This document shows positions 21,335 through 49,059 of a DNA stretch of 64,000 bases, one piece after another (position 1 is the first letter of the stretch; every line of letters starts with the position of its first letter). The notes beneath the pieces were generated by a model. It saw only the letters and a program-made list of their open reading frames with translations. It was not told the DNA's origin and made no database searches. Source of the stretch: Sphingopyxis macrogoltabida (GTDB taxonomy: Bacteria > Pseudomonadota > Alphaproteobacteria > Sphingomonadales > Sphingomonadaceae); the NCBI RefSeq assembly GCF_001314325.1, contig NZ_CP009429.1, positions 4,650,501 through 4,714,500 on the forward strand. Direction: 5' to 3'. Position numbers and translations under genes: made by a program.

Positions 21335-21546
21335 CGCGTTCCGGCCGAGCAGTCGTGAAGGCTGCGACCGCTTTATGTCCCCTTCTGGCCGAAAGCAGAC
21401 GGGCAGCTTTTCTGCGAGAATCCACGCAAGCCGACATCGACCACCGCCGAGCCGTAAGGACGTGGAATAACGCGACACAGGCTCGCAGCTTTGACCGCGT
21501 GTTCGCCCTCGATGCGCCTGAACCCGAAAAGGGCTTCTGGAAGCGG

Positions 21547-22380
21547 TCAGCCGTTAAACGCCGCGATGTTCATCGCGAAAGTGCCCGCACGGAAGGCCGC
21601 GATATAGCCCAGATCCTCGGCGCCCGCGAAAATGTTGACGTCCGGGCCGAAGCTGCCCAGCAGCCAGCGGATGATCGTCACCGAACTCGCTTCCCAATAG
21701 AGCATGTCTTCGGGGATGCGCGAGGCGATGCGCCACACGGCGTCGCGGTTCCAGTCGCGTTCGTCGTTCGCGCTGTTGCCGCTCGAGAAGAGGCCGTCTT
21801 CCTCGATCATGATCTTCCAGGCGCCCGCCTCGACCATTGCCTCGCACTCGCGGATCATCTTGTCGGCGCTGATCTTGCCGCGGTCGCCGGGGCTCCATCC
21901 GGTGATCTCGGGCTTGGCCTTCATCCCGAGCGCGTTGACCGCCTTCACCAGATTGACCTTGTCCTGCACCGAGATCGAAACGAGCGCCGACGATAGTTCG
22001 ACGATGTCGAAGCCCAGCTCCTTCGACTGTTCGAGATAGCGATGCACCGCGACTTCGCCGAGCGGCAACACCGTTTCGATCAGCCCGCCGGTCGATACCT
22101 CGATCGCATTGGCGTGGAGATAGGCGTTGATTTCCTTGACGGTGTCGCGGCTGAGCAGGCGCTGGGTACCGCAGGTCCATTTGACGCTGTCGATAAAATC
22201 GCCCAGTCCCTCGACGATCCCCGTGAGCTGGGAGAGCGAATAGGCGGGCGAGCGGATTTCGGTGAGCCCGACCGTCCGAGGCTTGGGCTTCGGTTCTATG
22301 ATCGGCACGATGTCGCTGAACGCACGCTCCGTTGCGTCGGTCATGCTTTTCTGCTCCTGAAGCGGGCGCTCGATATTCAT
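21547..22380 (-). CDS. Phosphosulfolactate synthase (ComA) family protein
   Basis: A 277-residue TIM-barrel protein of the ComA family, which in archaea and some bacteria adds sulfite to PEP to form phosphosulfolactate. Family segments visible: PRTVGLTEIRSPAYS (about 34-48), IDSVKWTCGTQRLL, STGGLIETVL, FDIVELSSALVSI, and WKIMIEEDGLF (about 190-200). ATG 22380 overlaps the stop of the MFS gene (ATGA), so it is translated with a TonB receptor, esterase and permease. No ComB or ComC phosphatase/dehydrogenase gene is next to it. Reaction and substrate here are unproven; plant and fungal relatives have unrelated roles. Confidence 0.85.
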   Translation of the reverse strand: MNIERPLQEQKSMTDATERAFSDIVPIIEPKPKPRTVGLTEIRSPAYSLSQLTGIVEGLGDFIDSVKWTCGTQRLLSRDTVKEINAYLHANAIEVSTGGLIETVLPLGEVAVHRYLEQSKELGFDIVELSSALVSISVQDKVNLVKAVNALGMKAKPEITGWSPGDRGKISADKMIRECEAMVEAGAWKIMIEEDGLFSSGNSANDERDWNRDAVWRIASRIPEDMLYWEASSVTIIRWLLGSFGPDVNIFAGAEDLGYIAAFRAGTFAMNIAAFNG

Positions 22381-23771
22381 TGATTTTCTTTCTCAGGCGC
22401 CGCCGACGGCTTCACCGTCGACAGCAGCGCCAGCCCGATGGCCAGCAGGACGATCACCGGCACGAAACCGGCTTGTTGGGATTGGGTGGCTGCGGTCGCC
22501 CAGCCGATCGCGAGCGGCGCGAGCCAGGCGGTGACGGTGCCGGCCATCGCATAGAGGCCGAAATAGGCCCCCGCCTCGCTGGCGGGGCTCAATGATGCGA
22601 GCAGCGCACGGCTCGACGCGGTGGTGCCGGAGGTCAGCCCGGTCATCGTGAGCAGCAACGCGAGGAAGACGATGTCGGTGACCCGCGCGAACACCGGCCC
22701 GTCCCAAGCGAGCGGGCCGCCATCGAGCCGCACGAAGAAGATCGTATCTGGAGATGTGCCGACGATGACGAGCAGCGCGACGATCATGCCGCTGAGCATG
22801 ATCTGCAACGTCCGCTTCGACCCGATGCGCATATCGAGCCGCGCGAGGAAGAAGGCGCCGGTCGCAGCGGCCGCGAGCTGCCCGATGCCGAGCAGCAGCA
22901 GCTCGGTCGCGCTCCACCCCATCACCCCGCCTGCGAGCACCCCGGTGAAGATCGAGATGGCGGTGATACCGTCGGCATAGATCATCCGCGCGAGCAGGAA
23001 TTTCGCCGCATTGGGCCGCGCTTTCAGATGCCGCGCGAGCCCGCCGAGATAGGCGAAAGCGCCGCCAAACGACGCGCTCCAGCTTTTGTTCGTCGGCGGA
23101 TAGTCGCGCGCATAGAGCAGGAGCGGCACGCTGGCCGCGACGAGCAGCAGCGCAGCCATGATGGGGACGATACGCAGATGCTGGAAGCTTTCGGTGTCGA
23201 GCCCGAACAGCGGCGCCTCCGGCCGCACGAGCGCGAGCAGGATGAAGATGAGGAACAGGAAACCGCTCGACGAGCCGATCGTGATCGAGAGGCCCGAGAG
23301 CCGTGCCATCGACCCGCCCGACGCCGCGACGGCGAGAAGCGAATTATGGAGCATCTCGGTATAGGTGTAGAAGAGCTTGCCGAACACCAGCAGCGTCACG
23401 ATCACGGCGATCGGCAGCCCGGCACCGCCCGGCTCGGCGAACCAGAGCGCGGCGACAACCCCGACGAGGATGGCCATGAAGGCGACGATCCACGGCTTGC
23501 GCCGCCCGCGCTGATCGAGCAGCGCGCCGAGCAGGGGCGCCGTGCAGGCGGCGGCAAAGCCCGCATATTTCGCGAAGTTCGCGACCTCGGCCTGCCCCGC
23601 GACCGCGTCACCGACGACCGTCTTGGCGAAATAGGGCATGAAGACGACGCCGAGCATCACGACATAAGGGATACGCCCGCCCTCGAACAGCGCCCAGGCA
23701 AGGCCCGGACGATCGAGCCGCGCGGGTGCGGCGGCGGCGGGCGCGATCTCGGGCACGGTCGTGCTGGCCAT
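22377..23771 (-). CDS. MFS transporter, UMF1-like
   Basis: A 464-residue membrane protein with about 12 hydrophobic segments. The N-terminal part (VMLGVVFMPYFAKTVVGDAV) and the loop GALLDQRGRRKPWI are the MFS A-motif pattern of the UMF1/Atg22-like group. The other segments (LVFGKLFYTYTEMLHNSLL, SGFLFLIFILLAL) agree. ATG 23771 shares a base with the esterase stop (TGATG) and the stop overlaps the next start, so it is the third gene of a four-gene operon. It presumably moves the product of the esterase, or its degradation products, across the inner membrane. Confidence 0.9.
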   Translation of the reverse strand: MASTTVPEIAPAAAAPARLDRPGLAWALFEGGRIPYVVMLGVVFMPYFAKTVVGDAVAGQAEVANFAKYAGFAAACTAPLLGALLDQRGRRKPWIVAFMAILVGVVAALWFAEPGGAGLPIAVIVTLLVFGKLFYTYTEMLHNSLLAVAASGGSMARLSGLSITIGSSSGFLFLIFILLALVRPEAPLFGLDTESFQHLRIVPIMAALLLVAASVPLLLYARDYPPTNKSWSASFGGAFAYLGGLARHLKARPNAAKFLLARMIYADGITAISIFTGVLAGGVMGWSATELLLLGIGQLAAAATGAFFLARLDMRIGSKRTLQIMLSGMIVALLVIVGTSPDTIFFVRLDGGPLAWDGPVFARVTDIVFLALLLTMTGLTSGTTASSRALLASLSPASEAGAYFGLYAMAGTVTAWLAPLAIGWATAATQSQQAGFVPVIVLLAIGLALLSTVKPSAAPEKENQ

Positions 23772-25399
23772 CAGGCGGCTCCCATCGCTTCGCGGTCGTG
23801 GAACGGGTTGTCGACGACGTGCGCCTTCACATCGAGCAGCATGGTCTCGCGCTTTTTCGCGGTATAGGCAGGCCAGCGCGGCAGCAGCGCGTTGTCGGGT
23901 TTGCCGTGGCGCGCGAAACTGGCCCAGGTGCGGCCCATGATCCGGCTCATCTCCGCAACGTGCGGCGAGTCCGCGAACCATGGGGTGCGGCTCATCTCGG
24001 TGAGATTGGCATAATTGCCCATGACGAGCGGGACGTCGGTCGCGTGCCCCGCGCCGCGCGGCCCGTCGGTCGTGCCGCCGGCATAGGTCATCACATAGAC
24101 GAAGGTCGGCGCCGCCTTCGCCGACGCCTTGGCATCGGCGAGCTTGTTCGAAAGATAGCGCCAGCTGCCCGCAGTTTCGACGCGCACCATGAGCGCGCCG
24201 GGCGAAAGGTCGGGCCAGACCTTCCTGTAATGCGCGAGGATCGTGTCGGTGCGGTCGCCGAGCTTGACGAAGGGGCCGTCGGCGAGGCGCGCATGCACCT
24301 CGGCAGCGCTCATCGCTTCTAGCTGCTTCAGGCCCTCGGGCCCCTGATAGCCGGCGATCGGTTCGTCGAGCGTGCTGCCGATCATGACGGGGATCGCCCC
24401 GGACGCGCCCGCCGCGACCGCGGCACCGGGGTGCTGGAGCAGGGTCACGCCGTCGACGAGCGGCTGCGGGCCGCCGCCGCCGCCATAACCGCCCTCAGGG
24501 TCCTGTCCCGCCTTCGACAGCGCCGCGACGGCTTCGAGGATCGGTGCGGCGGGCATGGTCAGAAGTTCGCGTGCACGGGAGTGGTCGAGGCCAAGCTTTG
24601 CAAGCAGACGCTCCGTATAGGCGGTCGCAGCCGGCCGCTCGATCGCGGTCGAGAGCGCGCCGCTCATCACGATGGCGCGGTGGAACAAGCCCTTCGCCGC
24701 AGGCATCGCAAGCAGGTGGCTGATCTTCTTGCCGCCGCCCGAGACGCCATAGATGGTGACGCATCCGGGATCGCCGCCGAACGCCGCGATATTGTCCCGT
24801 ACCCATTGCAGCGCGAGGATCAGGTCGAGATTGCCGGCGTTGCCCACGGCATAGTCGCCGCCGAGGATATCGCCGAGATAGAGATAGCCGAGCGGCCCGA
24901 TGCGGTGGTTGAGCGAGACAACGACGACATCCTCGGTCCGCGCGAGATGCGTGCCGTCGCTCGACGCCCCCGACCCCGATCCGGTGCGGAAGCCGCCGCC
25001 GTGGAGATAGACCATCACCGGGCGCTTCGCGGCGTCGGTGGCCGGGGCCCAGATGTTGAGGACAAGGCAATCCTCGCCGCCGGTGGCGCCGCGCGCGCCG
25101 AGCTGCGGGCAGCCCGGTCCATAATTCGCCGCGTCGATCACTGCGCTGCGTGCCCGATACGGCTTGGGCGGCAGGAAGCGCGCCGCACCGCCAGTCGGCT
25201 CGCCATAGGGGATGCCCTTGAAGATGCGGACGCCGCCGTCGCTGGTGCCGCGCACCTTGCCCGAGGTGGTTTCGACGATGCCGATATCGCTGCCCATTGC
25301 CCCGTTCGCCACCCCGATCGCCGCCATGCCCGCCGCGCCCGCAAGGAAACGGCGGCGGATGAGGGGAAGAACCCATGGCAATGTTGACCTGTCTGTCAT
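23771..25399 (-). CDS. Tat-exported type-B carboxylesterase
   Basis: A 542-residue carboxylesterase/lipase. The N-terminus has a twin-arginine signal (LIRRRFLAGAAGMAAIGVA, about residues 13-31), so it probably folds before export to the periplasm. Type-B features are GIPYGEP near residue 68, GGEDCLVLNIWAPA (about 108-121), the oxyanion strand VYLHGGGF, and a nucleophile elbow GVSGGG in place of the usual GESAGG/A. A candidate acid is in STLDEP and a candidate His is in GAGHATDVP. The start is ATG 25399 with GGAAGGG upstream. It follows the TonB receptor gene by 46 bases. Confidence 0.9.
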   Translation of the reverse strand: MTDRSTLPWVLPLIRRRFLAGAAGMAAIGVANGAMGSDIGIVETTSGKVRGTSDGGVRIFKGIPYGEPTGGAARFLPPKPYRARSAVIDAANYGPGCPQLGARGATGGEDCLVLNIWAPATDAAKRPVMVYLHGGGFRTGSGSGASSDGTHLARTEDVVVVSLNHRIGPLGYLYLGDILGGDYAVGNAGNLDLILALQWVRDNIAAFGGDPGCVTIYGVSGGGKKISHLLAMPAAKGLFHRAIVMSGALSTAIERPAATAYTERLLAKLGLDHSRARELLTMPAAPILEAVAALSKAGQDPEGGYGGGGGPQPLVDGVTLLQHPGAAVAAGASGAIPVMIGSTLDEPIAGYQGPEGLKQLEAMSAAEVHARLADGPFVKLGDRTDTILAHYRKVWPDLSPGALMVRVETAGSWRYLSNKLADAKASAKAAPTFVYVMTYAGGTTDGPRGAGHATDVPLVMGNYANLTEMSRTPWFADSPHVAEMSRIMGRTWASFARHGKPDNALLPRWPAYTAKKRETMLLDVKAHVVDNPFHDREAMGAA

Positions 25400-25445
25400 C
25401 GGCCCTTCCCCTTCGCGGCACCGCCAGGTTGCCGCAACTTGTCCG

Positions 25446-27977
25446 TCAGAATGCGTAATTGAGCTCAAAGTAGAACTGCCGCGGCGGCGAGAACACGTCG
25501 ATGTTGATCCCGTTGGTGCCGCGCAGTTCGTTGCCGCCCACCTTGCCGTTGAAGTCGAACAAATTGGTCACGGCGAAGGCGGCGCTGAGCCCGCTGTCGT
25601 TGATATTCGCCCAGTCGAGCCGGATATCGGCGGTGGTGAAGCCATCGATCTGCCGCTGCGCTTCGACCCCGACATTCGGCTCGCTCGAAGAAAAGCTGCC
25701 GCGATGATAGATATTGCCCGACAGCGAGATGTCGGGGGCGCCATCGATCATCTTGCCGAAATCGATCCGCGGCCGGATGCCCCACAGCCATTTCGAAACA
25801 TTGGCGGGGCGGAAGGTCGTGAGGTCGAACGGAACCGGAAACGCCTCGAACTGCCCGGTGTTCGGATATTCGAGATATTTCGCATCGGTCAGCGTCACGA
25901 AGCCGCCGAGGCTGAACCAGTCGTAATTGACCTTCGCGTCGAGATCGAAGCCCTGGATGCGGATCTTGGCGACGTTGGCGATATAGGCGACCGGATTCCC
26001 ATTGACCGGCTGGGTGACGTTGCGCTGGGCATTGTCGAAATTGTCGCGATAGACGTCGAACGAGACCAGCCCGCGCAGCGGCCCGCTGCGCCAGCTGTAT
26101 TTCGTGCCGATTTCATAATCGGTGACGATTTCCGCGCCATATTCCCCGAACCCCGCCGGTGCATTGGCGCCGTTGAAGCCCCCCGGATTGTAGCCGCGGC
26201 GGGTGGTCGCATAGACCATGAAGTCGGGATTGAGCTGATATTGCGCCGCGAACGACCAGGTGCCCTCGCCGAATTTGAGCGTCTGGAAGGTTTCGCCCGG
26301 GATCGACTTGATGTCGCCGGCGATGAGAAACGGCGCCGCGCCGTTGATCTGCACCATTTGCGTCGGGAGCCCCGAGTTCGCGATCGAGAGCGAAGAGTAG
26401 CTGGCTTGCGCGGCCGAGCGCTTGCTCCATGTGTAGCGATAGCCGGCGGTCAGCGACAGCTTGTCGGTGACGTCGAACGTCGCCTGCGTATAGACGGCGC
26501 GATCGCTCGCCCGGCTCTTGCCGAGCGAAATGCGCGCGCCCGAATAGCAGTAGAAATTTCCGTCGGCGCCGGGCTCCGCCACCGTTCCCGCCAGCGAACA
26601 GGCGACGGCGTTGCTCGCCTGGCCAAGATAGCCGCCATAAAGAAGCACCGCGCTTTGCTGATAATAGGGCGACCAGTTCTTTTCGTAGAAGAAGCCTGCG
26701 GTAATATCGAGGCGGTCGTCGAGCAGGCTTGCCTGCGCCTGGATTTCCTCGGTCAGCGACCGCGCGCCATGCCCCGGGGAGTCGACCAGTTCGAGCATCG
26801 GCAGATACAGGCTGTCGACATTCTGGGCGCTGTTGCCGCGCCGCTTGTTCGACTGGTAACTGAAGATATTCTTGAGGGTCAGGAAATCCACCACCCGGAA
26901 TTCGGTGGTATTGATAAGGCCGATCTGCCGCTGGTTGACGCTGGGGAAAGTGACGTTGTTTTCGTTGACGTCATAGACCGACCGCCCCTTCTGATCGTCG
27001 ACGGCGCCCTGCGCGAGTTCCAGCCAGGTCGGACAGACCCCGCCGGGGCAGGTGATGTTGTTGAGCTTTGCCAGCGCAGGCGCGATCCGCTGCAGATTGC
27101 CGCGCTGGATGGTCCCGAACGGCCCGAGGTTGACGACAGCGCTGAACGGTCGCGCGATGGTCGGGATGCCTGACCGGACCGGATCCTCGATATAGTCGAC
27201 GGCCGCGATCGTCGTGTTCGTGATGCTGTCGGTCGGCGTGAATTCGAGGATGGCGCGGAACGACTGGCCGTCGCGGCCGTCGAGATGTCCACCGTTATAG
27301 CGGTTGGAGGAAAAGCCGTTGCTCTTGAGGAGTTGCCCCGACACGCGCAGCCCCAGAACATTGTCGATCAGCGGGCCACCGACGGCAAATTCGACGTCGC
27401 GGCGACCATATTCGCCGATCTTGAGGTCGACGAAACCCGCGAATTCGTCACCCGGCCTTGTCGGCGAGAAGAGGACGGCGCCGCCCGTCGTGACGCGGCC
27501 GAACAGCGTGCCGACCGGCCCCTTGATGACCTGGACATTGTCGAGGTCGAAGAAATTCGATTCGAGCCCGAAGCTCGGCACCTCGGCGAAATAGGTGACG
27601 ACGCCGGTGCCGCCGCCCTGACCGCGAATGGCGAAACGCGACGTGCGGCGCGACAGGCCCAGTGAGCCCGACGAACCCATTTGCGCGGTCAGCCCCGGGG
27701 TCATTTTGACGAGATCCGGCGCAAAGGTCACATCGTTGCTGCGAAGATCCTCCCCGCTCGCAACACTGACGGCAATCGGCGTTTCCAGAATCGATTCGTC
27801 GCGGCGACGTGCGGTGACGATGATCGCGTCGTCGCTGTCGGCCGACTCGGCAGCAGGCGCCGCCTGCCCATCCTGGGCCCACGCCGCCGCCGGAGACAGC
27901 GCCGCCATGCTGGCCGCTGCCAGCAGCGCGGTGCGCAGCTTCCGCCCCCCGCACGAAAGATGATAAATCCCGGTCAT
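25446..27977 (-). CDS. TonB-dependent outer-membrane receptor
   Basis: An 843-residue receptor. A signal peptide (TALLAAASMAALSPAAAWAQ) is followed by a plug domain containing the TonB-box-like DDAIIVTARRRDESILETPI (about residues 49-68) and VQVIKGPVGTLFGRVTTGGA (about 148-167). A long beta-barrel ends in FYFELNYAF, with the terminal aromatic needed for outer-membrane assembly. There is no siderophore-type neighbour. The adjacent esterase, permease and nearby hydrolases suggest uptake of an organic substrate. The start has GGAGGGAGAGC before ATG 27977, and the promoter region holds a palindrome shared with the three-hydrolase operon. Confidence 0.95.
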   Translation of the reverse strand: MTGIYHLSCGGRKLRTALLAAASMAALSPAAAWAQDGQAAPAAESADSDDAIIVTARRRDESILETPIAVSVASGEDLRSNDVTFAPDLVKMTPGLTAQMGSSGSLGLSRRTSRFAIRGQGGGTGVVTYFAEVPSFGLESNFFDLDNVQVIKGPVGTLFGRVTTGGAVLFSPTRPGDEFAGFVDLKIGEYGRRDVEFAVGGPLIDNVLGLRVSGQLLKSNGFSSNRYNGGHLDGRDGQSFRAILEFTPTDSITNTTIAAVDYIEDPVRSGIPTIARPFSAVVNLGPFGTIQRGNLQRIAPALAKLNNITCPGGVCPTWLELAQGAVDDQKGRSVYDVNENNVTFPSVNQRQIGLINTTEFRVVDFLTLKNIFSYQSNKRRGNSAQNVDSLYLPMLELVDSPGHGARSLTEEIQAQASLLDDRLDITAGFFYEKNWSPYYQQSAVLLYGGYLGQASNAVACSLAGTVAEPGADGNFYCYSGARISLGKSRASDRAVYTQATFDVTDKLSLTAGYRYTWSKRSAAQASYSSLSIANSGLPTQMVQINGAAPFLIAGDIKSIPGETFQTLKFGEGTWSFAAQYQLNPDFMVYATTRRGYNPGGFNGANAPAGFGEYGAEIVTDYEIGTKYSWRSGPLRGLVSFDVYRDNFDNAQRNVTQPVNGNPVAYIANVAKIRIQGFDLDAKVNYDWFSLGGFVTLTDAKYLEYPNTGQFEAFPVPFDLTTFRPANVSKWLWGIRPRIDFGKMIDGAPDISLSGNIYHRGSFSSSEPNVGVEAQRQIDGFTTADIRLDWANINDSGLSAAFAVTNLFDFNGKVGGNELRGTNGINIDVFSPPRQFYFELNYAF

Positions 27978-28039
27978 TGCTCTCCCTCCTCCGCTTTTTT
28001 CGCGAATTGATTATCTGTCAATTTTTGAATTTGCAATTT

Positions 28040-28079
28040 ACTGGCTGGTTGTCAAGCAAGTATTTGCTGGTCAGCCAGT
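28040..28079. promoter_or_regulatory. Candidate TetR operator, copy 1
   Basis: ACTGGCTGG (28040-28048), four bases, then CAAGCAAGT (28053-28061) forms an imperfect palindrome ACTNGCTNG-N4-CNAGCNAGT. A further half-site CAGCCAGT (28072-28079) pairs with ACTGGCTG at 28040 as a wider inverted repeat. The site lies between the divergent TonB receptor and tetR starts. The minus strand reads TTGCTTGACA here, resembling a -35 region, so binding would block the promoter. A second copy is at 33127-33148. Confidence 0.72.
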
Positions 28080-28114
28080 CAGAGGGTTGCGGGGTTCTGG
28101 CGAACGGCATAGGA

Positions 28115-28741
28115 ATGCGCTTTCAGGCCAAGCAATCAGGGGGCGAAGTGCGGCGCACACAGGAAGAACGGCGGCAGGAGTCCGAGAGCCGACTGCTCGC
28201 CGCGGCCGTCAAGCTGATCGCCGAAAAGGGTGCGAACGGCTTTACCCTTGCAGAGGTCGGGCACGAGGCCGGCTATAGCCGCAGCCTGCCGGGCCATTAT
28301 TACGAGACCAAGGAAGCGCTGCTGGCGCGCGTGGTCGAGCATATCACGCGCGACTCGCTCGCGGCGATCACCGATCCCGACGCCGAACCCGGCATCGAAT
28401 CGATGCGCGCGCGCTGGGGCCGCGCGCTGGCGGCCGAAGGCGTCGATTCCTATCGCACGCGCGCCCTCTATGCGCTGTTCCTCGGCGCGATGTTCGACCC
28501 CGAACTCGCGAAGATCATGGCGCGCTACAACCAGGCCACCGTCTCGCGCATCGCCGACAGCCTGCGCGAGGCGATCGCGCGCGGCGACGTGCGCAGCGAC
28601 ATCGACGTCGAGGTCGAGGCGCAGGCGCTGCTGCTGTTCCGTCGCGGCTCGGCGCTGGTCCATTTCACCGATCCCGCGCTCGACCTCGTCAGCATCCTCG
28701 ACGGCTATCTGACGCAGGTCGCCGAACGGTTGAAGCCCTAG
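28115..28741 (+). CDS. TetR family transcriptional regulator
   Basis: A 208-residue regulator. The N-terminal DNA-binding domain is clear: ESRLLAAAVKLIAEKGANGF (helix 1) and FTLAEVGHEAGYSRSLPGHYY (helix-turn-helix; about residues 46-66), followed by a ligand-binding C-terminus (LYALFLGAMFDPELAKIM...). Start choice is uncertain: ATG 28115, or GTG 28148 with a better GGGGG ribosome site, which gives 197 residues. It is divergent from the TonB receptor operon and convergent with the last hydrolase gene, whose stop overlaps its own in CTAG. It probably represses both flanking operons through the shared palindrome and senses a substrate or degradation product. Confidence 0.9.
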   Translation: MRFQAKQSGGEVRRTQEERRQESESRLLAAAVKLIAEKGANGFTLAEVGHEAGYSRSLPGHYYETKEALLARVVEHITRDSLAAITDPDAEPGIESMRARWGRALAAEGVDSYRTRALYALFLGAMFDPELAKIMARYNQATVSRIADSLREAIARGDVRSDIDVEVEAQALLLFRRGSALVHFTDPALDLVSILDGYLTQVAERLKP

Positions 28742-30180
28742 CCCGCCGCGACCGGCCCCTTCTTCGCTTCGGCCAGATACTCCTCGGCACGGTAGGGCAA
28801 GATGAGGTCGCCGAGCAGCGCATCGTCGACCGCGGCGCGGACGGCGTTCGCGTAGGCCTCGTCGTCGGGATAGAGACGGCGCAGCACATCCTCGGGCAGC
28901 GGGGTCCGGCCGCCCCGCGCGGGCGAGCTCTTGGTATCGAACACCGCCGTGGGCGCTTCGACTTCAGGCAGGCGCACGCCGCCCAGCGCATTGCCCTGGA
29001 CGTCGGTGACGATGTCGCGAAGCGTCGCGCCGCGCAGCAGGCGCGGATGCCGCGCGAGCGGTGCGCCGCCTTCCTTCCACCGCACGAGCGCCAACCCCGC
29101 CGCCGCCATCGTCGGCATGAAGCGCACCATTCGCTGGTCTGAGCCGCCGACCGAATCCTTGATCCCGTCGCGCTCCGCCACGCTCGCACGATAGCCGGTG
29201 TCGCACGCCGATCCATGGACGGTGCCCGCCAGCTCCCACAAACGCAGCTTCGCCGCGTCGGGCTGCGGCGGCACACGGTGCATGCGCGCCTCGGTCTCCG
29301 ACAGCATGATCAGCACCGGCACGTCGAGATCGTCGCGGATCGTCGTTTCGACGATCCGCGCGAAGAAGCGCTTGTTGTAGTCGGCCGCGCTTTCGCCCGG
29401 AATGATCTGAGGATTCGTCAGCTCGCTGCCGCCGCCGACAAGCACGCAGGGAATGAAGGCCGCGAAGAAATTCGCGAGCGGATGGACCGCGTTGATATAG
29501 GTCGCGAGCCGCGCCGCCGACTGCGATTCGCCCGTCGCGATCACATGCTTCGCCTTCAGCCCGGCGAGCGGATCGGGACCGCTCCGCCCCTTCGCCGACA
29601 CCAGGGCTTGGGCGACCTGCGTGAAGATATCGTAGGAGAAGGCATCGCCCGGATGGACGAGACTGCCATAGCGGTCGCCGTCCCAATGTTTGAGCCCCGC
29701 GGTCGGCAGCGTGTCGAGCCCGTCGATCCCGACCTTTTGCGCCGAGATCGCGACGTAGACATAGCCGCTCTGCCAGAAGCTCTCGTTCACCGCGTTCGAC
29801 AGGTCGCTGAAGGTCGAGACATTGGTCCATTCAGCCATCACCACGCCATTGAACTTCGCGGGGTCCTTGGGCCGATGGACGATGACGCGAGTCTTGTAAG
29901 GCGCGCGCTGGTCGGCGACTACCTTCCACCGGCCGTCCTTGCCGAGTTCGCCGACCGGCTTGAAGCTCTGCGCCGTGCCCGAAACGAAATATTCCTCCTC
30001 GACATAGCCATGCGCCGCCATGTCGCCATAGAAGGCGCCATAGATATGCCCGCGCTTGCCGCCGGTGACCGGGCCTTCGACCTTCGTCGTATCGGGTGCT
30101 TTCGCCGCGGCGGAGGTGGCGGCGAGCGCGACGGTTCCGGCGGCAGCCGCAGTCATGGCAAATTCCCGGCGTGACAGCAT
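28738..30180 (-). CDS. Tat-exported alpha/beta hydrolase, tandem paralogue C
   Basis: A 480-residue protein of the Abhydrolase_10-like family (PF20091). The N-terminal twin-arginine signal LSRREFAMTAAAAGTVALAAT directs Tat export. Mature segments: EGPVTGGKRGHIYGAFYGDM (about 35-54), VIVHRPKDPAKFNGVVMAEWTNVS (about 99-122), FSYDIFTQVAQAL, the nucleophile elbow GESQSAARL, and a late GTVHGSA His. The reaction is not established for this family; esters or lactones are likely. Closest to copy A in visible sequence. The start is preceded by GGAG; the gene follows copy B by 18 bases and is the last of the operon. Confidence 0.88.
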   Translation of the reverse strand: MLSRREFAMTAAAAGTVALAATSAAAKAPDTTKVEGPVTGGKRGHIYGAFYGDMAAHGYVEEEYFVSGTAQSFKPVGELGKDGRWKVVADQRAPYKTRVIVHRPKDPAKFNGVVMAEWTNVSTFSDLSNAVNESFWQSGYVYVAISAQKVGIDGLDTLPTAGLKHWDGDRYGSLVHPGDAFSYDIFTQVAQALVSAKGRSGPDPLAGLKAKHVIATGESQSAARLATYINAVHPLANFFAAFIPCVLVGGGSELTNPQIIPGESAADYNKRFFARIVETTIRDDLDVPVLIMLSETEARMHRVPPQPDAAKLRLWELAGTVHGSACDTGYRASVAERDGIKDSVGGSDQRMVRFMPTMAAAGLALVRWKEGGAPLARHPRLLRGATLRDIVTDVQGNALGGVRLPEVEAPTAVFDTKSSPARGGRTPLPEDVLRRLYPDDEAYANAVRAAVDDALLGDLILPYRAEEYLAEAKKGPVAAG

Positions 30181-30198
30181 GTCTTCATCTCCGATGGG

Positions 30199-31620
30199 TC
30201 AGTGGGTCGGCGGAATATCGGCGGCGCGCGCCTGCTCGACATAGGCCTCAGCACGCACGGGCAGGATCACGCCCGCCGTGAGCGCGGCTTGCGCAGCAGC
30301 AGCGACGCGATCGACGTAACTCTTGTGATCGGGGTAGAGCCGCTTCAGCTCGTCGGGCGCGAACGGATGCGTCTCGCCGGCGAGGAAATGCTTCGTACCC
30401 TGCCCCTTGTAGCTTGCGATTGGCACCTCGAGCTCGGGGAGGCGCACGCCGCCAAGCGCATTGCCATGGCCGTCGCGCGCGATCGTCTTGCCGTCGGCGT
30501 CGAAGGCGATCGGTGCCTGCGCGGGCGGGGGCGGACCGCCGGCGAGCCAGCGGTGGACGTGATGGATCGCCGCGTCCGAGGTCGGTTGCCACGACACATG
30601 GCTCGCCGCATCGAAGGCGTGCCAGCGGCTGCCGACGCCGTCGCGATCCTCCTTGCCATGGATGATCTTCAAGAGTTCGGCCGGGCCATGCGATGCCCCG
30701 GCAACCTCCCAGCTGCGATAGGATGGCGTGTCGGACTGGCGGTTCGGGCGAAAGAAAGGCGCCTCGAACTCGGTGTTCATCTGCATCGCCGGGATACCGA
30801 GGTCGGCCCGCACCTGCGTGAACAGCGGACGCGCGCCCGCCGCCGCGGCGCCGGGCGCGGCGCCGCCCTCGAACGGCGCCGCGGCACCGGCGCAGAGCAT
30901 CGGCATCAGCGCGTCATAGACGCGCGCCAGCGGCTGCACGCCGTTCGCGTAGGAGAGGATGCGGCTGCCCGATTGCGAGATGCCCGCGCCGATCAGCTTG
31001 CTCACCCTGTAGCCGTGGAGCGGATGACCGCGCGCCGCATTCGCGCGCAGCGCACGCGCCGCCTGGGTGAAGATGTCGTACGACCAGTCGTCGCCGGGAT
31101 GGACGAGCGCGGCATAACGATCGGCATCCCAGTTCTTGAGGCCCTGTGGCTTGTCACCTTCGCCGAACACCCCGCCAAATTGGGACGTAACACCGACATA
31201 GGCGAAGCCGTCATAGAGGCCCGCTCCATCGAGAAAACTCACATCGAAACCGAGGCTGACGTTGAGCCATTCGACGAGGATGGTGCCGTTGAACTTCCCG
31301 GGATCCTTCGGGCGGCGCACGAACAGCCGGGTCGCAAAGGGCCGGCGTTCGCCGGGGGCCAGCGTCCATTTGCCGTCGGGCGTCAGGGCGTCCGCCGCGG
31401 CATAGCGCCCGGCCTCGCCTTCCAGCAGATACTCGCCCTCGACATAACCGAGCGCCGCGAGGTCATCGAGCGTCGTCCCGAAGATCTTGCCGCGTCCCGC
31501 GGCAGGCATCGGGCGGAGCATTGCCCCCGCCCCTTCCGCAGCGTGGGCACCGATCCCCATGGCACCCAGCGTTGCCCCGGCCAGCGCCGTCGCAGCAAAA
31601 CTCCGCCTGCTCATCCGCAT
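30199..31620 (-). CDS. Tat-exported alpha/beta hydrolase, tandem paralogue B
   Basis: A 473-residue member of the same family but more divergent. The start is ATG 31620, with GGAG in the upstream GGAGAGAAGACG. It has a Tat-type N-terminus (RMSRRSFAATALAGATLGAM). Shared segments are GRGKIFGTTLDDLAALGYVEGEY, KFNGTILVEWLNVS and WSYDIFTQAARAL. Its nucleophile elbow is GISQSGSRIL rather than GESQSAARL, and it has a proline/glycine-rich insert (AAAPFEGGAAPGAAAAGARP) missing from copies A and C. The candidate His is in GASHGPAE. It probably has a different substrate preference from its neighbours. Confidence 0.87.
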   Translation of the reverse strand: MRMSRRSFAATALAGATLGAMGIGAHAAEGAGAMLRPMPAAGRGKIFGTTLDDLAALGYVEGEYLLEGEAGRYAAADALTPDGKWTLAPGERRPFATRLFVRRPKDPGKFNGTILVEWLNVSLGFDVSFLDGAGLYDGFAYVGVTSQFGGVFGEGDKPQGLKNWDADRYAALVHPGDDWSYDIFTQAARALRANAARGHPLHGYRVSKLIGAGISQSGSRILSYANGVQPLARVYDALMPMLCAGAAAPFEGGAAPGAAAAGARPLFTQVRADLGIPAMQMNTEFEAPFFRPNRQSDTPSYRSWEVAGASHGPAELLKIIHGKEDRDGVGSRWHAFDAASHVSWQPTSDAAIHHVHRWLAGGPPPPAQAPIAFDADGKTIARDGHGNALGGVRLPELEVPIASYKGQGTKHFLAGETHPFAPDELKRLYPDHKSYVDRVAAAAQAALTAGVILPVRAEAYVEQARAADIPPTH

Positions 31621-31637
31621 CGTCTTCTCTCCGATCG

Positions 31638-33083
31638 TCAATAATAGGGAACCGGCCCCGCGGCCGATTTGGCGATGTAAGCATCGCGATGCCGCGGCAG
31701 GATCAACCCCGCCGCCACCGCCCAGTCGGCGGCCGCCCTGATGCGCGCGGCATAGTCGGCATCGGCCGGATAGATCGCCTTCAGCGTCGCGGCGTCAAAG
31801 GGTTCGAGCCGCCCCGCGGCATCGTTCGTCTGCGTTATATATTTCACCGTCGGGGCGACGATTTCGGGCATGCGGATGCCGCCCTTCGCATTGCCGAACG
31901 CATCGGTCTGGATCGCCGGCTTGTCGCCTGCGACCTCGATCCGGTCGAAGCGCCCGAGTGGTGCACCGCCCGAGAGCCAGCGGTCGAGACCAACGGCGGC
32001 GGCTTCGAGGACCGGAAACAGGTCGACCATCTTCGGCCAGCGCGCCGCCATGTTCGGGATGCCGTCGCGCGCCGAAATGTCGGGCCGCCGCCCTCCGCCG
32101 ATCGCCGAGGCGTGCGTCGATCCGGCGACCTCCCAGAAACGATACCAGTCGCTGTCGGGCTGGCGGCTCGCGACAAAATAGGGCGTCTCGGTCTCGGAAT
32201 TGACGACCAGCACGGGCACCTTCTGGTCGGTGCGCACGCGTGTCTGCACCGTTCGCGAGCGGCGAATATTGTTATTCTCGTCGAGCGACTTGGCGGGATC
32301 ATAGATGAAGTCGTCGAACTCGGTCGAGCGGCCGACCGCGACGACGATCATGTAGGCGTCGAAGACGTTGGCCAGCCGGTGCACGGCATTTACATAAGAG
32401 AGGAGCCGCGCCGCCGACTGCGACTCGCCGAGCGCGAAGAGGCGTTTGACCGGCAAGCCGCCCATCGGGTCGACCCCGCCCCTCGCCCGATCCGGCCCGA
32501 GCGCCCGCGCAACCTGCGAGAAGATGTCGTAAGAAAAGCTGTCGCCGGCGATCTCGAGCGATCCATAACGCTCCGGATCCCACTGCTTGAGCCCGAGCGC
32601 CCGCTCCTTCGTCCCCTCAAGGCCCATGCGCTGCGCCGAAATCGCGGCATAGGCATAACCGTCTTTCCAGAATTGCTGGTTCACCGCCGACGAGATTTCG
32701 AAACCCGCCGACACGTTGGTCCATTCGCAGATGACGGTGCCGTTGAACTTCGCAGCATCCCTTGGCCGCTGAACGATCACGCGCGTCGTGAACGGCGCCT
32801 GTTTTGCCGCCGCGACAGTCCATACACCATCGGGGCCGAGCGTGCCGACGGGCGCATAGGCATCGGCGGTGCCCGCGATGAAATATTCTTCCTCGACATA
32901 GCCGTGCGCGGCGAGATCGTCGGCATGCGCGCCAAAAATCTGTCCCCGCTGCCCTCCGGTCACCGGCCCATCAACGCGAACCGCAGAGGCCAGCGCCTTC
33001 CCCCAGGCTGTACAGGCCCCGCCAGCGGCAATCGTTGCCGTCATCCCCACGATATAACTCCCCAGTTGCCGACGGCCCAACAT
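31638..33083 (-). CDS. Tat-exported alpha/beta hydrolase, tandem paralogue A
   Basis: A 481-residue member, first gene of the three-hydrolase operon. ATG 33083 is preceded by GGAGAGCTTG. An N-terminal LGRRQLGSYIVGMTATIAAGG is a weaker Tat-like signal (a hydrophobic stretch after RR). Shared motifs: VDGPVTGGQRGQIFGAHADDLAAHGYVEEEY, KFNGTVICEWTNVS, FSYDIFSQVARAL, GESQSAARLL and GSTHASA. The upstream 44 bases to the candidate TetR operator (33127-33148) put this promoter under the same control as the TonB receptor operon. The 17-base gap to copy B supports co-transcription. Confidence 0.88.
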   Translation of the reverse strand: MLGRRQLGSYIVGMTATIAAGGACTAWGKALASAVRVDGPVTGGQRGQIFGAHADDLAAHGYVEEEYFIAGTADAYAPVGTLGPDGVWTVAAAKQAPFTTRVIVQRPRDAAKFNGTVICEWTNVSAGFEISSAVNQQFWKDGYAYAAISAQRMGLEGTKERALGLKQWDPERYGSLEIAGDSFSYDIFSQVARALGPDRARGGVDPMGGLPVKRLFALGESQSAARLLSYVNAVHRLANVFDAYMIVVAVGRSTEFDDFIYDPAKSLDENNNIRRSRTVQTRVRTDQKVPVLVVNSETETPYFVASRQPDSDWYRFWEVAGSTHASAIGGGRRPDISARDGIPNMAARWPKMVDLFPVLEAAAVGLDRWLSGGAPLGRFDRIEVAGDKPAIQTDAFGNAKGGIRMPEIVAPTVKYITQTNDAAGRLEPFDAATLKAIYPADADYAARIRAAADWAVAAGLILPRHRDAYIAKSAAGPVPYY

Positions 33084-33579
33084 CAAGCTCTCTCCAGTTT
33101 CCGCGCGCCGGTTCAGCTTAACAAAAACTAGCTGGTGATCAAGCAAGTAAATGAATGCTGACGGAGCGGGGATTTGCCGACGGCGACGAGGAGCAGCGTC
33201 GCGCCCCAGGCTGCGACGTTCGTATAACCGCATGGGCGCAGCAGAAAGCGGGATCGAGAAACCGCGTGGTGCCGCGTCACTGAGTCATGGCCTCAGAGAC
33301 AAAATCGAAGATCCGCCAAATCTAGGTCCGGATACATGAATGGATCGGCCTCGGTCTTATGATCGTCCTAGTTCCCCGGGCATGGGCCGCGACAATGCCT
33401 CGACGCTCTTCCCGATCACTGGACGAAGATACTCGGCGGCAGCCGCAGACACGGTCGTCGGATATATCCGGGGCCTCCTTGAGAAGACGCCGACCGGCCG
33501 TCAGCGGCCTTCCATCTCGCCGTGACCCACGGTACAATCGTCCGCCTCCCGTCAAGAGACCGCTCGAAGGAGAATGAAG
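33084..33579. other. Intergenic region of about 500 bases before the YbaY-like gene
   Basis: No convincing gene is seen on either strand; the short open frames here lack ribosome sites, signal peptides or domains. It contains the promoter side of the three-hydrolase operon with operator copy 2 (33127-33148) and an AAGGAG ribosome site at 33567-33572 for the next gene. The stretch 33200-33560 shows nothing else I can assign. Confidence 0.6.
33127..33148. promoter_or_regulatory. Candidate TetR operator, copy 2
   Basis: ACTAGCTGG, TGAT, CAAGCAAGT. It matches copy 1 (28040-28061) at the symmetric half-sites ACTNGCTNG and CNAGCNAGT; extending to 27 bases the two regions agree at 22 positions. It lies 44 bases upstream of the first hydrolase start. 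A CTTGAT element on the minus strand within it resembles a -35 box. Confidence 0.72.
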
Positions 33580-38146: not shown

Positions 38147-38950
38147 TCAGGCGTCGATGCTCGTCTTCAGGTCGCCGTGCACCAGCCCGCCGTCGACGGT
38201 GATCGTATCGCCGACGACATAGTCGCCCGCCTTCGACGCGAGGAAGATCGCGGCGCCCGCCATATCCTCGGGCACGCCGATGCGCTTGGTCGGGATGCTC
38301 TGCGCCACCGCATCGCCATGATCGCGCGCCGCCTTGTTCATGTCCGACTGGAAAGCGCCGGGCGCGATTGCGGTGACGAGGATATGATCGGTGACCAGCC
38401 GCGCCGCCATGCGCTTGGTGAGGTAGAGAATGGCGGCCTTCGATGCGTGATAGCTGTAGGTTTCCCACGGGTTCAAACGCATGCCGTCGATCGAGCCGAT
38501 GTTGATCACCTTCGCCGGACGGTCGTGCGAACCACCGGCCTTGAGCAGCCCGTGCAGCGCTTGGGTCAGAAAGAAGGGCGATTTGACGTTGATGTCCATC
38601 ACCTTGTCCCAGCCCGCCTCGGGGAAGCCCTCGAAGGGTTCGCCCCATGCCGCGCCGGCGTTGTTGACGAGAATGTCGAGCCGCTCTTCGCGCGCTTCGA
38701 GTTCCTTGGCGAGCGCGCGGCAACCCTCGACGGTCGAAAGATCGACGGGAAGGCCGATGACCTTGCCGGGGTAGCGGGTTCCGAAATCGGCGACGGCTTC
38801 CTCGATCTGCGCACTCTTGCGCGCCGATATATAGACGCGCGCGGCGCCCGCGGCGAGATAGCCCTCGACGATCATCTTGCCGATGCCGCGCGAACCGCCG
38901 GTGACGAGCGCGATGCGGTCGTCGAGGCCGAACATGTCCTGAAGATTCAT
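38147..38950 (-). CDS. Short-chain dehydrogenase/reductase
   Basis: A 267-residue SDR. The NAD(P)-binding TGGSRGIG (about residues 17-24), NNAGAAWG and the catalytic YHASK are visible, with PGAFQSDMN and VDGGLVHGD at the C-terminus. Substrate not inferable. It follows two acyl-CoA dehydrogenase genes on the same strand by 17 bases and is the last gene of that operon, so it likely oxidises or reduces a hydroxyacyl or carbonyl intermediate of the same pathway. Confidence 0.9.
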   Translation of the reverse strand: MNLQDMFGLDDRIALVTGGSRGIGKMIVEGYLAAGAARVYISARKSAQIEEAVADFGTRYPGKVIGLPVDLSTVEGCRALAKELEAREERLDILVNNAGAAWGEPFEGFPEAGWDKVMDINVKSPFFLTQALHGLLKAGGSHDRPAKVINIGSIDGMRLNPWETYSYHASKAAILYLTKRMAARLVTDHILVTAIAPGAFQSDMNKAARDHGDAVAQSIPTKRIGVPEDMAGAAIFLASKAGDYVVGDTITVDGGLVHGDLKTSIDA

Positions 38951-38967
38951 TGTCTTTACTCCCCGGC

Positions 38968-40086
38968 TCAATAGCCGTTCATGCGGGCGACCTGGTCGAT
39001 GTGGTAGTGCACATCGCCCATATATTCGGCGAGCGCGCGGTCGCGTTTCATATAGAGGCCGATGTCATATTCGTCGGTCATGCCGATGCCGCCATGCATC
39101 TGCACGCCTTCGCGCACCGCGAGATTCGCAGCGCGGCCGGCCTTGGCCTTGGCGACCGAGACCATCAGCTTCGCGCCCTCGCTGCCCTCGTCGAGCAATT
39201 GCTGTGCCTTCATCACGGTGGCGCGCGCGACCTCCATTTCGCCATAGAGATGCGCGGCGCGGTGCTGGAGCCCCTGGAACTCGCCGATCAGCTTGCCGAA
39301 CTGCTTGCGTTCCTTGAGGTAGGTGACGGTCATGTCCATCGCGCCCTGCCCGACGCCGACCATTTCGGCGGCAGCGCCGGTGCGGGTGGCGGCGAGCAGC
39401 GCGTCGAGGATCTCGCCGCCGGCATCGACCTCGCCGATCACCGCGTCGGCATCGACCTCGACCCCATCGAGCGTGACATGGCTCGCGAGGCTGGAGTCGA
39501 CGAGGCGGCGCGGATCGGCCGTAACGCCCTTGGCGTCCTTCGGCACCGCGAAGAGCGTGATACCGCCGTCGGTCTTCGCCGCGACGATGCTCATGTCGGC
39601 GACATGGCCGTGGAGGACGAAGCTCTTCTTTCCATCGAGGCGGAAACCGTTGCCCGCGCGCGTCGCGGTGGTCGCGATGCGGTCGGGGCGGTGCTTGGCG
39701 CCCTCGTCGATCGCGAGCGCGATGATCGCTTCACCGCTGGCGATCGCGGGAAGCCAGCGGCCGGCCTGCGTGCCGCCAGCCTTGGCGAGCGCGGCGACCG
39801 CGCCGACGCTGGTTGCGAGGAAAGGCGACGGGGTCAGGTTGCGGCCGATTTCCTCGAGCACGATCCCCGCTTCCATATGCCCCATGCCGAGCCCGCCATG
39901 CGCCTCGGGCACGAGCATACCGGGCAGGCCCATTTCGGTGAACTGCGCCCAGAGGTCGCGCGAAAAGCCGGTGGCATCGGCCTCGTCGCGCAGCTTGCGG
40001 AGGTGCAGGACGGGGGCCTGTTCGGCCACGAAGGGGGCGACGCTGTCCTTGAGCATCGCCTGATCGTCATTGTGATAGAGAGGCAT
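38968..40086 (-). CDS. Acyl-CoA dehydrogenase (partner subunit type)
   Basis: A 372-residue FAD-dependent acyl-CoA dehydrogenase with the three-domain layout: N-terminal helical domain (MPLYHNDDQAMLKDSVAPF...), middle beta domain (weakly kept FAD-binding segments), and a C-terminal helical part (YLKERKQFGKLIGEFQGLQHR, then QMHGGIGMTDEYDIGLYMKRD). It starts three bases after the upstream acyl-CoA dehydrogenase gene. Such paired, dissimilar genes often encode heteromeric FadE enzymes for cyclic or branched acyl-CoA in actinobacteria and sphingomonads; heteromer formation here is inference. Confidence 0.9.
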   Translation of the reverse strand: MPLYHNDDQAMLKDSVAPFVAEQAPVLHLRKLRDEADATGFSRDLWAQFTEMGLPGMLVPEAHGGLGMGHMEAGIVLEEIGRNLTPSPFLATSVGAVAALAKAGGTQAGRWLPAIASGEAIIALAIDEGAKHRPDRIATTATRAGNGFRLDGKKSFVLHGHVADMSIVAAKTDGGITLFAVPKDAKGVTADPRRLVDSSLASHVTLDGVEVDADAVIGEVDAGGEILDALLAATRTGAAAEMVGVGQGAMDMTVTYLKERKQFGKLIGEFQGLQHRAAHLYGEMEVARATVMKAQQLLDEGSEGAKLMVSVAKAKAGRAANLAVREGVQMHGGIGMTDEYDIGLYMKRDRALAEYMGDVHYHIDQVARMNGY

Positions 40087-40089
40087 GGG

Positions 40090-41271
40090 TCAGGCTCCGG
40101 GCAGGTCGAGGATACGCTTGGCGATGACGTTGAGCATGACTTCGCTCGTCCCGCCTTCGATCGAATTGGCCTTGGTGCGCAGCCAGCCGCGCGCGCGCGC
40201 GCCGCCCTTGGTCTCCTCGCTGTCCCATTCGAGCGCTTCGCTGCCGCCGCCCGACATGACGAGTTCGTGGCGGCGCTTGTTCAATTCGGTGCCGACATAT
40301 TTCATCATGTTCGAGCTGGCCGGATGCGCGCGGCCGGTTTTCCACATATCCATGAAACGCTCGCCCATCGCGCGATAGGCGAAGACGTCGACGTCGAACG
40401 CCGCCATTTCGGCGCGCAGGATCGGGTCGTCGAGCTCGCCATGGTCGTTCTTGCCGAGCGACTTCGCAAAGAGCGCACCGATACTGACCATGTCGCCGCC
40501 CGCGCCGCCGCCCGAGATCATCTCGCGTTCGTGGCCGAGCAGATATTTGGCGACGTCCCAGCCGCGGTTGATCTCGCCGATATATTGCGTCTTCGGCACC
40601 TCGACATCGTCGAAGAAGGTTTCGCAGAAGGGCGAATTGCCGCTGATCAGCAGGATCGGCTTGGTGGTGACGCCCTTGCTCGCCATGTCGAAGAGCATGA
40701 AGGTGATGCCCTGATATTTGTTCGCCTTGTCGGTGCGGACGAGGCAGAAGATCCAGTCGGCCTTGTCGGCATAGCTGGTCCAGATCTTCGACCCGTTGAC
40801 GACCCAGTGATCGCCCTTGTCCTCGCCGAAGGTCTGGAGCGAGACGAGGTCGCTGCCCGAGCCGGGTTCCGAATAGCCCTGGCACCAGCGGATTTCGCCG
40901 CGCGCGATCGGGTTCAGATAATGGACCTTCTGCTCCTCGGTGCCGAATTTCAGCAGCGCGGGGCCGAGCATCCAGATGCCGAAGCTGTCGAGCGGCGAGC
41001 GCGCATTGATCCGCTTCATTTCCTGTTTGAGGACCTTGGTCTCTTCGGGCGAGAGGCCGGCGCCGCCATAAGGCTTGGGCCAGTCGGGGACGGTATAGCC
41101 CTTGGCGACACAGGCCTCGAGCCACTGCTTCTGGGCTTCGTTCTTGAATTCCCAGTTGCGGCCGCCCCAGCAGACGTCGCCTTCCTCGCGCACCGGTTCG
41201 CGCATTTCCGGGGGACAATTGGTTTCCAGCCACGCGCGCACTTCGGCGCGGAAGGCGTCCAGATCGCTCAT
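40090..41271 (-). CDS. Acyl-CoA dehydrogenase (first gene of the pair)
   Basis: A 393-residue acyl-CoA dehydrogenase. ATG 41271 is preceded by GAGGAG. Clear motifs are WCQGYSEPGSGSDLVSLQT (FAD-binding loop, about residues 128-146), WVVNGSKIWTSYADKADW (about 155-172), and the C-terminal GGTSEVMLNVIAKRILDLPGA. It matches the large FadE-type subunits. It is the first gene of the operon and faces the SDR/MFS operon across 172 bases of promoter DNA containing two palindromes. Confidence 0.92.
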   Translation of the reverse strand: MSDLDAFRAEVRAWLETNCPPEMREPVREEGDVCWGGRNWEFKNEAQKQWLEACVAKGYTVPDWPKPYGGAGLSPEETKVLKQEMKRINARSPLDSFGIWMLGPALLKFGTEEQKVHYLNPIARGEIRWCQGYSEPGSGSDLVSLQTFGEDKGDHWVVNGSKIWTSYADKADWIFCLVRTDKANKYQGITFMLFDMASKGVTTKPILLISGNSPFCETFFDDVEVPKTQYIGEINRGWDVAKYLLGHEREMISGGGAGGDMVSIGALFAKSLGKNDHGELDDPILRAEMAAFDVDVFAYRAMGERFMDMWKTGRAHPASSNMMKYVGTELNKRRHELVMSGGGSEALEWDSEETKGGARARGWLRTKANSIEGGTSEVMLNVIAKRILDLPGA

Positions 41272-41317
41272 CTCAAGGCTCCTCTTCTCTCCCGCAAATC
41301 TACGTCCGGTTCGCTAC

Positions 41318-41370
41318 TTTACGCAAGCGTCAACTTGGGCGCGGCAACCTGCCGCTACGGCGCCGTAGCG
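41318..41370. promoter_or_regulatory. Divergent promoter region with two palindromes
   Basis: TTTACGCAAGCGTCAA (41318-41333) is a one-mismatch palindrome that matches the pattern of a site at 43838-43853. CGCTACGGCGCCGTAGCG (41353-41370) is an 18-bp perfect palindrome. Both lie between divergent acyl-CoA dehydrogenase and SDR starts. The first is a plausible site for a MerR-type LiuR-like regulator by pattern; neither is proven. Confidence 0.6.
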
Positions 41371-41443
41371 TCCGTTCGACCGCCGTTGACGCGGCTTTTC
41401 GGGCGCCTAAGCTGAGTGGCAAAATAAAACGGGAGCAGAGGAT

Positions 41444-43758: not shown

Positions 43759-43837
43759 CGGAAAATGTCGCAGGCCGACCAAATGGGGTAATTTTCGGCC
43801 CGCAGGACTTGGCAAGGCCCGCGAATCGGTCCAAAGG

Positions 43838-43853
43838 TTTACGTGAACGTAAA
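43838..43853. promoter_or_regulatory. Palindromic candidate operator upstream of acyl-CoA dehydrogenase
   Basis: TTTACGTGAACGTAAA, a perfect 16-base inverted repeat (7-bp arms, 2-base spacer), 16 bases before the start codon. It resembles palindromes I recall as proposed LiuR (MerR-family) sites in fatty-acid and branched-chain catabolic operons. A similar sequence occurs at 41318-41333. No regulator gene is present beside it. Confidence 0.6.
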
Positions 43854-43869
43854 GGGAAAGGAAGCGAAG

Positions 43870-45159: not shown

Positions 45160-45182
45160 ACGCATCGACCTAAGCCGAATAT

Positions 45183-45278
45183 CGTCATTGCGAGGAGCGA
45201 AGCGACGAAGCAATCTCCAACCATCGGCCTTGCGCCGTGATCCAGGCTGGAGATTGCTTCGCTCCGCTCGCAATGACG
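45183..45278. repeat. Long inverted repeat, type C
   Basis: The left arm CGTCATTGCGAGGAGCGAAG and the right arm GCTCCGCTCGCAATGACG (with internal imperfect pairing around GCAATCTCCA and TGGAGATTGC) form a long hairpin. It is a common class of intergenic palindrome in many bacteria. It separates the acyl-CoA dehydrogenase and alcohol dehydrogenase genes, so the latter probably has its own promoter in the remaining 53 bases or reads through. Confidence 0.82.
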
Positions 45279-45331
45279 GAATTGGATAAGCGGGTTTTGC
45301 CCCGCGAAAATGGGAAAGGTTGCAGTTCCAC

Positions 45332-49048: not shown

Positions 49049-49059
49049 GGAGACACGAT

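Follow-up and report, generated by a model that had tools for sequence, protein, structure and literature searches.

A putative TetR-controlled uptake and ester-hydrolysis island with a divergent ComA-like protein in Sphingopyxis macrogoltabida

What compound is handled by a locus that places a TonB-dependent receptor, four putatively exported hydrolases, a permease and a ComA-like protein around a single tetR gene? The question is raised by eight genes at positions 21547–33148 (~12 kb) of a 64,000 nucleotide window from the 5.75 Mb genome of Sphingopyxis macrogoltabida (contig NZ_CP009429.1, positions 4,650,501 to 4,714,500). The window is the whole stretch of DNA that was analysed, and positions given here are those of the window. 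A preliminary description, made from the sequence alone, had named these genes, arranged them as two minus-strand operons around tetR and proposed uptake and hydrolysis of a bulky ester or lactone. Profile searches and translation of the open reading frames identified all eight in that arrangement, with tetR itself on the plus strand. The gene content supports the general plan, and the island probably lets the bacterium take up and cleave an ester-type compound. Beyond the preliminary description, the locus is an insertion of ~12 kb, its ComA-like protein belongs to a divergent clade, and the core of ComA, Abhydrolase_10 and esterase genes recurs in Actinobacteria. The features, including the predicted signals for twin-arginine translocation (Tat), are as follows.

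21337..33497, no strand: inserted segment of ~12.2 kb, absent from the equivalent site in relatives
21547..22380, minus strand: ComA-like TIM-barrel protein (PF02679) of a distinct clade, start at 22380 or 22344
22377..23771, minus strand: UMF1/Atg22-like major facilitator permease (PF11700, 93.5 bits; PF07690, 51.8 bits)
23771..25399, minus strand: type-B carboxylesterase (PF00135, 312 bits) with the Tat-like signal RRRFLAG
25446..27977, minus strand: TonB-dependent outer-membrane receptor (PF00593, PF07715)
28040..28061, minus strand: predicted operator 1, ACTTGCTTGAYMACCAGCYAGT, upstream of tonB, with 0–1 mismatch in L013–L017
28062..28083, plus strand: weaker operator-like site adjoining operator 1 on the tetR side, 6 mismatches to the pattern
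28115..28741, plus strand: TetR-family regulator (TetR_N, 37.6 bits against a cut-off of 24)
28738..30180, minus strand: abh3, Abhydrolase_10 (PF20091, 386 bits), Tat-like signal LSRREF
30199..31620, minus strand: abh2, Abhydrolase_10 (PF20091, 417 bits), Tat-like signal MSRRSF
31638..33083, minus strand: abh1, Abhydrolase_10 (PF20091, 412 bits), Tat-like signal LGRRQL, start chosen among candidates
33127..33148, minus strand: predicted operator 2, ACTTGCTTGAYMACCAGCYAGT, upstream of abh1, with relatives in L051–L054

Operon 1 is transcribed in the order tonB, esterase, UMF1 and comA-like gene, and is tightly packed. There are 46 bp between tonB and the esterase gene, a 1 bp overlap between the esterase and UMF1 genes, and a 4 bp overlap between UMF1 and comA, which becomes a 32 bp gap if comA starts at 22344. 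Operon 2 consists of abh1, abh2 and abh3, separated by 17 bp and 18 bp. The tetR gene between the operons is divergent from tonB and overlaps the end of abh3 tail to tail by 4 bp. Ratios of nonsynonymous to synonymous substitution (dN/dS) are 0.02–0.41 for all eight genes (33 comparisons). The island genes therefore look to be under purifying selection rather than decaying.

The palindrome that had been proposed to precede both operons is real, and only moderately symmetric. The 22 bp ACTTGCTTGAYMACCAGCYAGT occurs twice in the window and in none of 100 window shuffles, and these two sites, from which the search pattern was derived, are the only ones in the genome at up to 3 mismatches. Symmetry extends to 14 of the 22 positions, as many as or fewer than in 1259 of the 63978 window 22-mers, and reaches 18 of 22 in orthologous copies. 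At 0–1 mismatch the site lies before tonB or umf1 in four Sphingopyxis loci (L013, L014, L015 and L017) and in Devosia riboflavina (L016). A wider pattern, drawn from the very sites that it recovers, is found at 0–1 mismatch in six genomes (five Sphingopyxis and Devosia) only before tonB/umf1 and the abh operon. Operons kept independently and without the operator had been taken in advance as a sign against a common locus. In S. panaciterrulae (G313) the operons are on separate contigs, and operon 2 is still preceded by a relative of the operator, which departs from the window pattern at 3 positions and from the wider one at 1; the check thus came out for a common regulon.

This confinement to two promoters, and the retention of the site before both operons in relatives, make it well supported at the sequence level that both operons form one TetR regulon, as had been suggested; the regulator has the TetR_N domain and an operator-like site is common to both promoters. 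TetR would bind both operators, with the substrate or one of its degradation products as the releasing ligand. The operator thus offers an experimental handle, since whatever compound releases TetR is probably the substrate itself or close to it. The weaker site at 28062..28083 perhaps serves autoregulation of tetR; tandem operator-like sites at 4–6 mismatches are also present in L015, L016 and L017.

The segment is well supported as a self-contained, horizontally moving and probably catabolic island. In genome G311 (L084) the match to the window breaks off after 21336 and is taken up again from 33498, the two parts being separated by 185 bp of different sequence; identity is 95% over the 2.07 kb preceding the insertion and 88–95% after it. 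The flanks were surveyed in 17 chosen genomes of the 79 others in the genus. An HNH gene, which ends at 21334 in the window, is present in all 17, and in 16 of these a YscW-like gene (15), a phosphoenolpyruvate carboxylase gene (15) or both lie no more than 1.5 kb past it, L093 being the sole locus with neither. In the window both of these genes are located beyond 33574. Four of the 17 genomes (G313, G325, G345 and G366) carry the cluster at another genomic place. Joined flanks in the absence of the island, and carriers with the cluster elsewhere, suggest that it moves laterally. An integrase-core gene lies 0.45 kb past comA in L013, and no common end repeats were found at the insertion.

The protein that had been called a ComA homologue belongs to the PF02679 family (161.9 bits against a cut-off of 25.2), but is a member of a rare, distinct clade and not a typical ComA. 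Among the best 120 of 337 matches in a protein search, P0001–P0026 share 58–95% identity with it, P0027 shares 46% and the remainder no more than 39%. The close relatives among the matches listed include at least 8 full-length proteins (74–95%) and one fragment, and clade members there also come from Rhodococcus koreensis, Blastomonas and Novosphingobium. A larger sister clade of bacterial and archaeal proteins annotated as phosphosulfolactate synthase has ~32–39% identity. The acidic and lysine core residues are common to both clades, whereas the loops WxPGDRG, EEDG[IL]F and GxExLG stand in place of the IQFGAGG, SEGITE and DHSQ-type loops of the sister clade. From these sequences we infer a neofunctionalised TIM-barrel enzyme that has kept the core and lacks the sister-clade loops. 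The neighbourhoods differ likewise: in 7 of 7 loci inspected, in the methanotroph M. trichosporium OB3b, the haloarchaeon Haladaptatus, L073–L075, L104 and L105, the sister-clade genes adjoin or lie near MmgE/PrpD and are not beside esterases. The annotation of the sister clade as phosphosulfolactate synthase may be wrong too.

When 84,980 species genomes were scanned with two peptide patterns, which gives a lower bound, at least 12 loci were found, 10 of them in the ComA-like clade (59–94%). These are in four Sphingopyxis, Devosia riboflavina, an alphaproteobacterial metagenome-assembled genome, two Mycobacterium, Kutzneria and Streptomyces avicenniae. Within the genus the clade is present in 5 of 80 genomes. 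Abhydrolase_10 genes are found in the same 20.8 kb in seven of the nine ComA loci with full flanks (L013, L014, L017, L019, L020, L021 and L022); of the other two, the L015 genome has two Abhydrolase_10 genes elsewhere under the operator and Devosia has none. The association of ComA-like and Abhydrolase_10 genes is thus recurrent across two phyla on gene neighbourhood, and offers a route to function for two poorly understood families. The Abhydrolase_10 triplet, proposed as part of a conserved set, is retained in the complete clusters of L013, L014 and L017 (with L051–L053), but is reduced to two genes in S. panaciterrulae and missing from Devosia.

The permease, a UMF1 family member (PF11700 cut-off 24.1 bits), has eight close relatives at 72–94% identity, followed by a drop to 47%. 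Three of them are on contigs of the same size as those of close ComA relatives (111416, 20333 and 1276946), and the 1276946 contig also carries P0129, a relative of abh2. These matching contigs suggest that the genes travel together in proteobacteria.

In the actinobacterial loci the gene order varies. In S. avicenniae (L021) just one Abhydrolase_10 gene was found across 6.5 Mb. It lies no more than 2 kb from comA, in the row Abhydrolase_10-esterase-ComA, which is followed by a helix-turn-helix (HTH) regulator and a major facilitator superfamily (MFS) pump. Directly upstream of this trio is a row of AfsA-HAD-KSIII-ACP-KS-SDR-SDR genes (L021:1162-6800). The AfsA-type neighbourhood allows a lactone substrate and proves nothing; it also allows detoxification. 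In Kutzneria two esterase fragments, separated by a transposase gene pair, lie between ComA and the hydrolases. IclR genes are present in the mycobacterial and Kutzneria loci.

All three operon 2 proteins are members of PF20091, scoring far over the cut-off, and have the catalytic Ser and His. Ser216 and His312 are invariant in 58 Abhydrolase_10 sequences, with a nearly invariant Glu (285 or 287), and the esterase has GxSxG at residue 218; on these residues the catalytic triads of the hydrolases look kept. On motif inspection the esterase and the three Abhydrolase_10 proteins have an N-terminal RRx[FL] twin-arginine-like motif, a predicted export signal. The abh genes are the sole Abhydrolase_10 copies found in their genome and have 38–48% mutual identity, which suggests that they are old paralogs, not a recent triplication. 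The predicted structure of abh2 is an alpha/beta hydrolase fold (predicted local distance difference test score, pLDDT, 91). Of the three, abh2 also comes nearest to the Abhydrolase_10 proteins linked to ComA in L019, L021 and L022 (48–50% identity), and the Kutzneria copies are nearest to abh1/abh2 (tied, 42–44%) and abh3 (67%). The esterase shares 59% identity with its S. avicenniae counterpart, as against 33–43% in aligned pieces with its own-genome paralogs. The searches made returned no biochemically characterised member of Abhydrolase_10 and no solved relative by sequence.

On balance these genes probably specify the TetR-repressed import of a bulky ester or lactone, its de-esterification in the periplasm, uptake of a fragment and processing by a ComA-fold enzyme. 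The TonB receptor would carry the bulky compound to the periplasm, where one ester or lactone bond after another would be cleaved by the Tat-exported esterase and Abhydrolase_10 enzymes. UMF1 would pass the freed fragment inward, and the ComA-like enzyme would break or modify it. In Devosia riboflavina TetR, UMF1 and ComA are the only components under the operator. This suggests one small fragment on which both UMF1 and ComA act; Devosia fits a user of a fragment made by other bacteria. The same unusual enzyme pairing is present in distantly related bacteria and may thus point to a degradation pathway that has yet to be described. More tentatively, and on this we stop short of an even chance, the ComA-like clade could have a new activity, its members serving as lyases or addition enzymes on a non-phosphorylated acid that the hydrolases release. 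It would define an undescribed pathway for degrading one class of natural product, borne on a mobile cassette that sphingomonads and actinobacteria share. One group would run the same chemistry across periplasm and cytoplasm, the other entirely within the cytoplasm.

Several observations weigh against this account. The operon 2 promoters of four Sphingopyxis relatives (L051, L052, L053 and L054) differ from the window pattern by 1, 4, 2 and 3 mismatches, and the 0, 0, 0 and 1 mismatches to the wider pattern are subject to its derivation from the same sites. At 3 mismatches the wider pattern has extra scattered sites, including one more in the window's own genome at C1:4886999, and a backwards control has equal or more matches in several genomes; only sites at 0–1 mismatch were counted for this reason. 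A search for sigma-70-like promoters around the two operators found none. The island contains no further catabolic enzymes, so that later steps would depend on the host. In Devosia there is no Abhydrolase_10 genome-wide and nothing resembling the island's esterase or receptor was found in the 20.8 kb locus, and no esterase or Abhydrolase_10-type hydrolase is present on the 4.6 kb contig of the alphaproteobacterial metagenome (L018). The ComA-linked actinobacterial Abhydrolase_10 proteins, with starts from simple gene calling, have no visible signal, and the L019 and L022 frames are open for only ~4 and ~20 codons upstream of the called starts; the periplasmic step would not then be universal. 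Outside the genome of the window, the ComA clade was not found in 298 genomes of its own family, nor in sets of 401, 394, 386 and 387 genomes, the last two searched at E 1e-20. Distant PF02679 family members (24–37%) number 4, 4 and 2 in the 401-, 394- and 387-genome sets. Statements on conservation therefore rest on few lineages.

The alternative that survives best, though it is unlikely, is detoxification, in which a toxic ester or lactone such as a competitor's antibiotic would be destroyed with no carbon gain, TetR sensing the compound and UMF1 exporting the product. Control by a divergently arranged tetR is a typical feature of drug-response systems, and the weak matches of this TetR among solved structures include TtgR and CprB. 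The position of the S. avicenniae trio, between a biosynthetic-type row and a regulator with a pump, is also consistent with resistance. However, a TonB receptor implies active import, the signals indicate the periplasm, past the outer-membrane import step, and four hydrolases with a probably cytoplasmic TIM-barrel enzyme are more than resistance needs.

Uptake and hydrolysis of an ester-type (trilactone) siderophore, through the receptor, periplasmic esterases and permease, is very unlikely. Siderophore esterases are alpha/beta hydrolases, and the weak best solved matches of the receptor are CirA-, pesticin-receptor- and FpvA-like; these matches are generic, however, and cover mainly the plug. 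Control is by TetR and not of Fur type, no siderophore biosynthesis, reductase or ABC gene is present in the island, and the ComA-like enzyme would have no role. The receptor itself is 60–63% identical in L013, L014 and L017, as against 87% in S. panaciterrulae. In the same three loci tetR is 91–98% and the esterase 74–88% identical. On these identities the receptor seems to have been exchanged among clusters that are otherwise alike.

Genuine coenzyme M (CoM) or sulfonate biosynthesis, with the ComA-like protein making phosphosulfolactate, is highly improbable. Family and fold are compatible with it, and one report describes bacterial XcbB1 as a phosphosulfolactate synthase (PMC8727900). The island protein, however, scores 75.9 bits against the equivalog cut-off of 280 for TIGR03849, a model named arch_ComA whose cut-off a bacterial synthase might miss too. 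In a comparison with the sister clade, its loops differ. The island lacks genes resembling xcbC/D/E or comB-E, the comA neighbours being the permease, esterase, receptor, tetR and hydrolase genes. The locus was accordingly rejected as a coenzyme M biosynthesis cluster, as lyase and CoM partner genes are not found beside comA.

That two unrelated operons are adjacent by chance is barely credible. S. panaciterrulae does keep them at separate places, and Devosia carries just a part of operon 1, but the presence of the operator before both separated operons argues strongly against chance, and co-localisation across phyla also speaks against it.

The general plan had been likened to the fumonisin-type clusters of the genus. 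The fum cluster of Sphingopyxis sp. MTA144 combines a type-B carboxylesterase, a transporter, a permease and regulators (PMC5408185). To that extent the two systems are alike, each having a type-B carboxylesterase with a receptor or transporter and a permease. The island differs in the absence of an aminotransferase (FumI) and a dehydrogenase from 21547–33148, and in having Abhydrolase_10 and ComA-like genes and TetR control. Its esterase is, as anticipated, unlike FumD: the best solved structure is 7x8l at 316 bits, with FumD (8s6d) in the 23rd row at 175 bits. Membership of the fum type was rejected on the esterase scores and the lack of a FumI-type aminotransferase. The open-access literature searched gave no report joining phosphosulfolactate synthase with a carboxylesterase and a TonB-dependent receptor and, among the best matches listed, no phosphosulfolactate synthase in Sphingopyxis degradation gene clusters. 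For Abhydrolase_10 (PF20091) it gave a single paper, which concerns lipid droplets. The receptor-esterase-permease plan is known, and the enzyme set is without a description in that literature.

Related gene rows were seen elsewhere. In L018 (727-4588) the ComA-like gene is accompanied by genes for a cyclase-family protein, an aldehyde dehydrogenase and an alcohol dehydrogenase, a row that looks catabolic and is cut off by the end of the contig. In Sphingobium sp. TomMM15 a gene resembling Abhydrolase_10 is carried on a conjugative plasmid (L083), where a TonB receptor, an arylsulfatase and a beta-glucosidase are encoded nearby. Beside the island, window positions 38147–50007 contain an acyl-CoA dehydrogenase (38968–40086), an MFS sugar-type transporter (42298–43758) and SDR-like N-termini; this is likely to be another catabolic region, outside the island.

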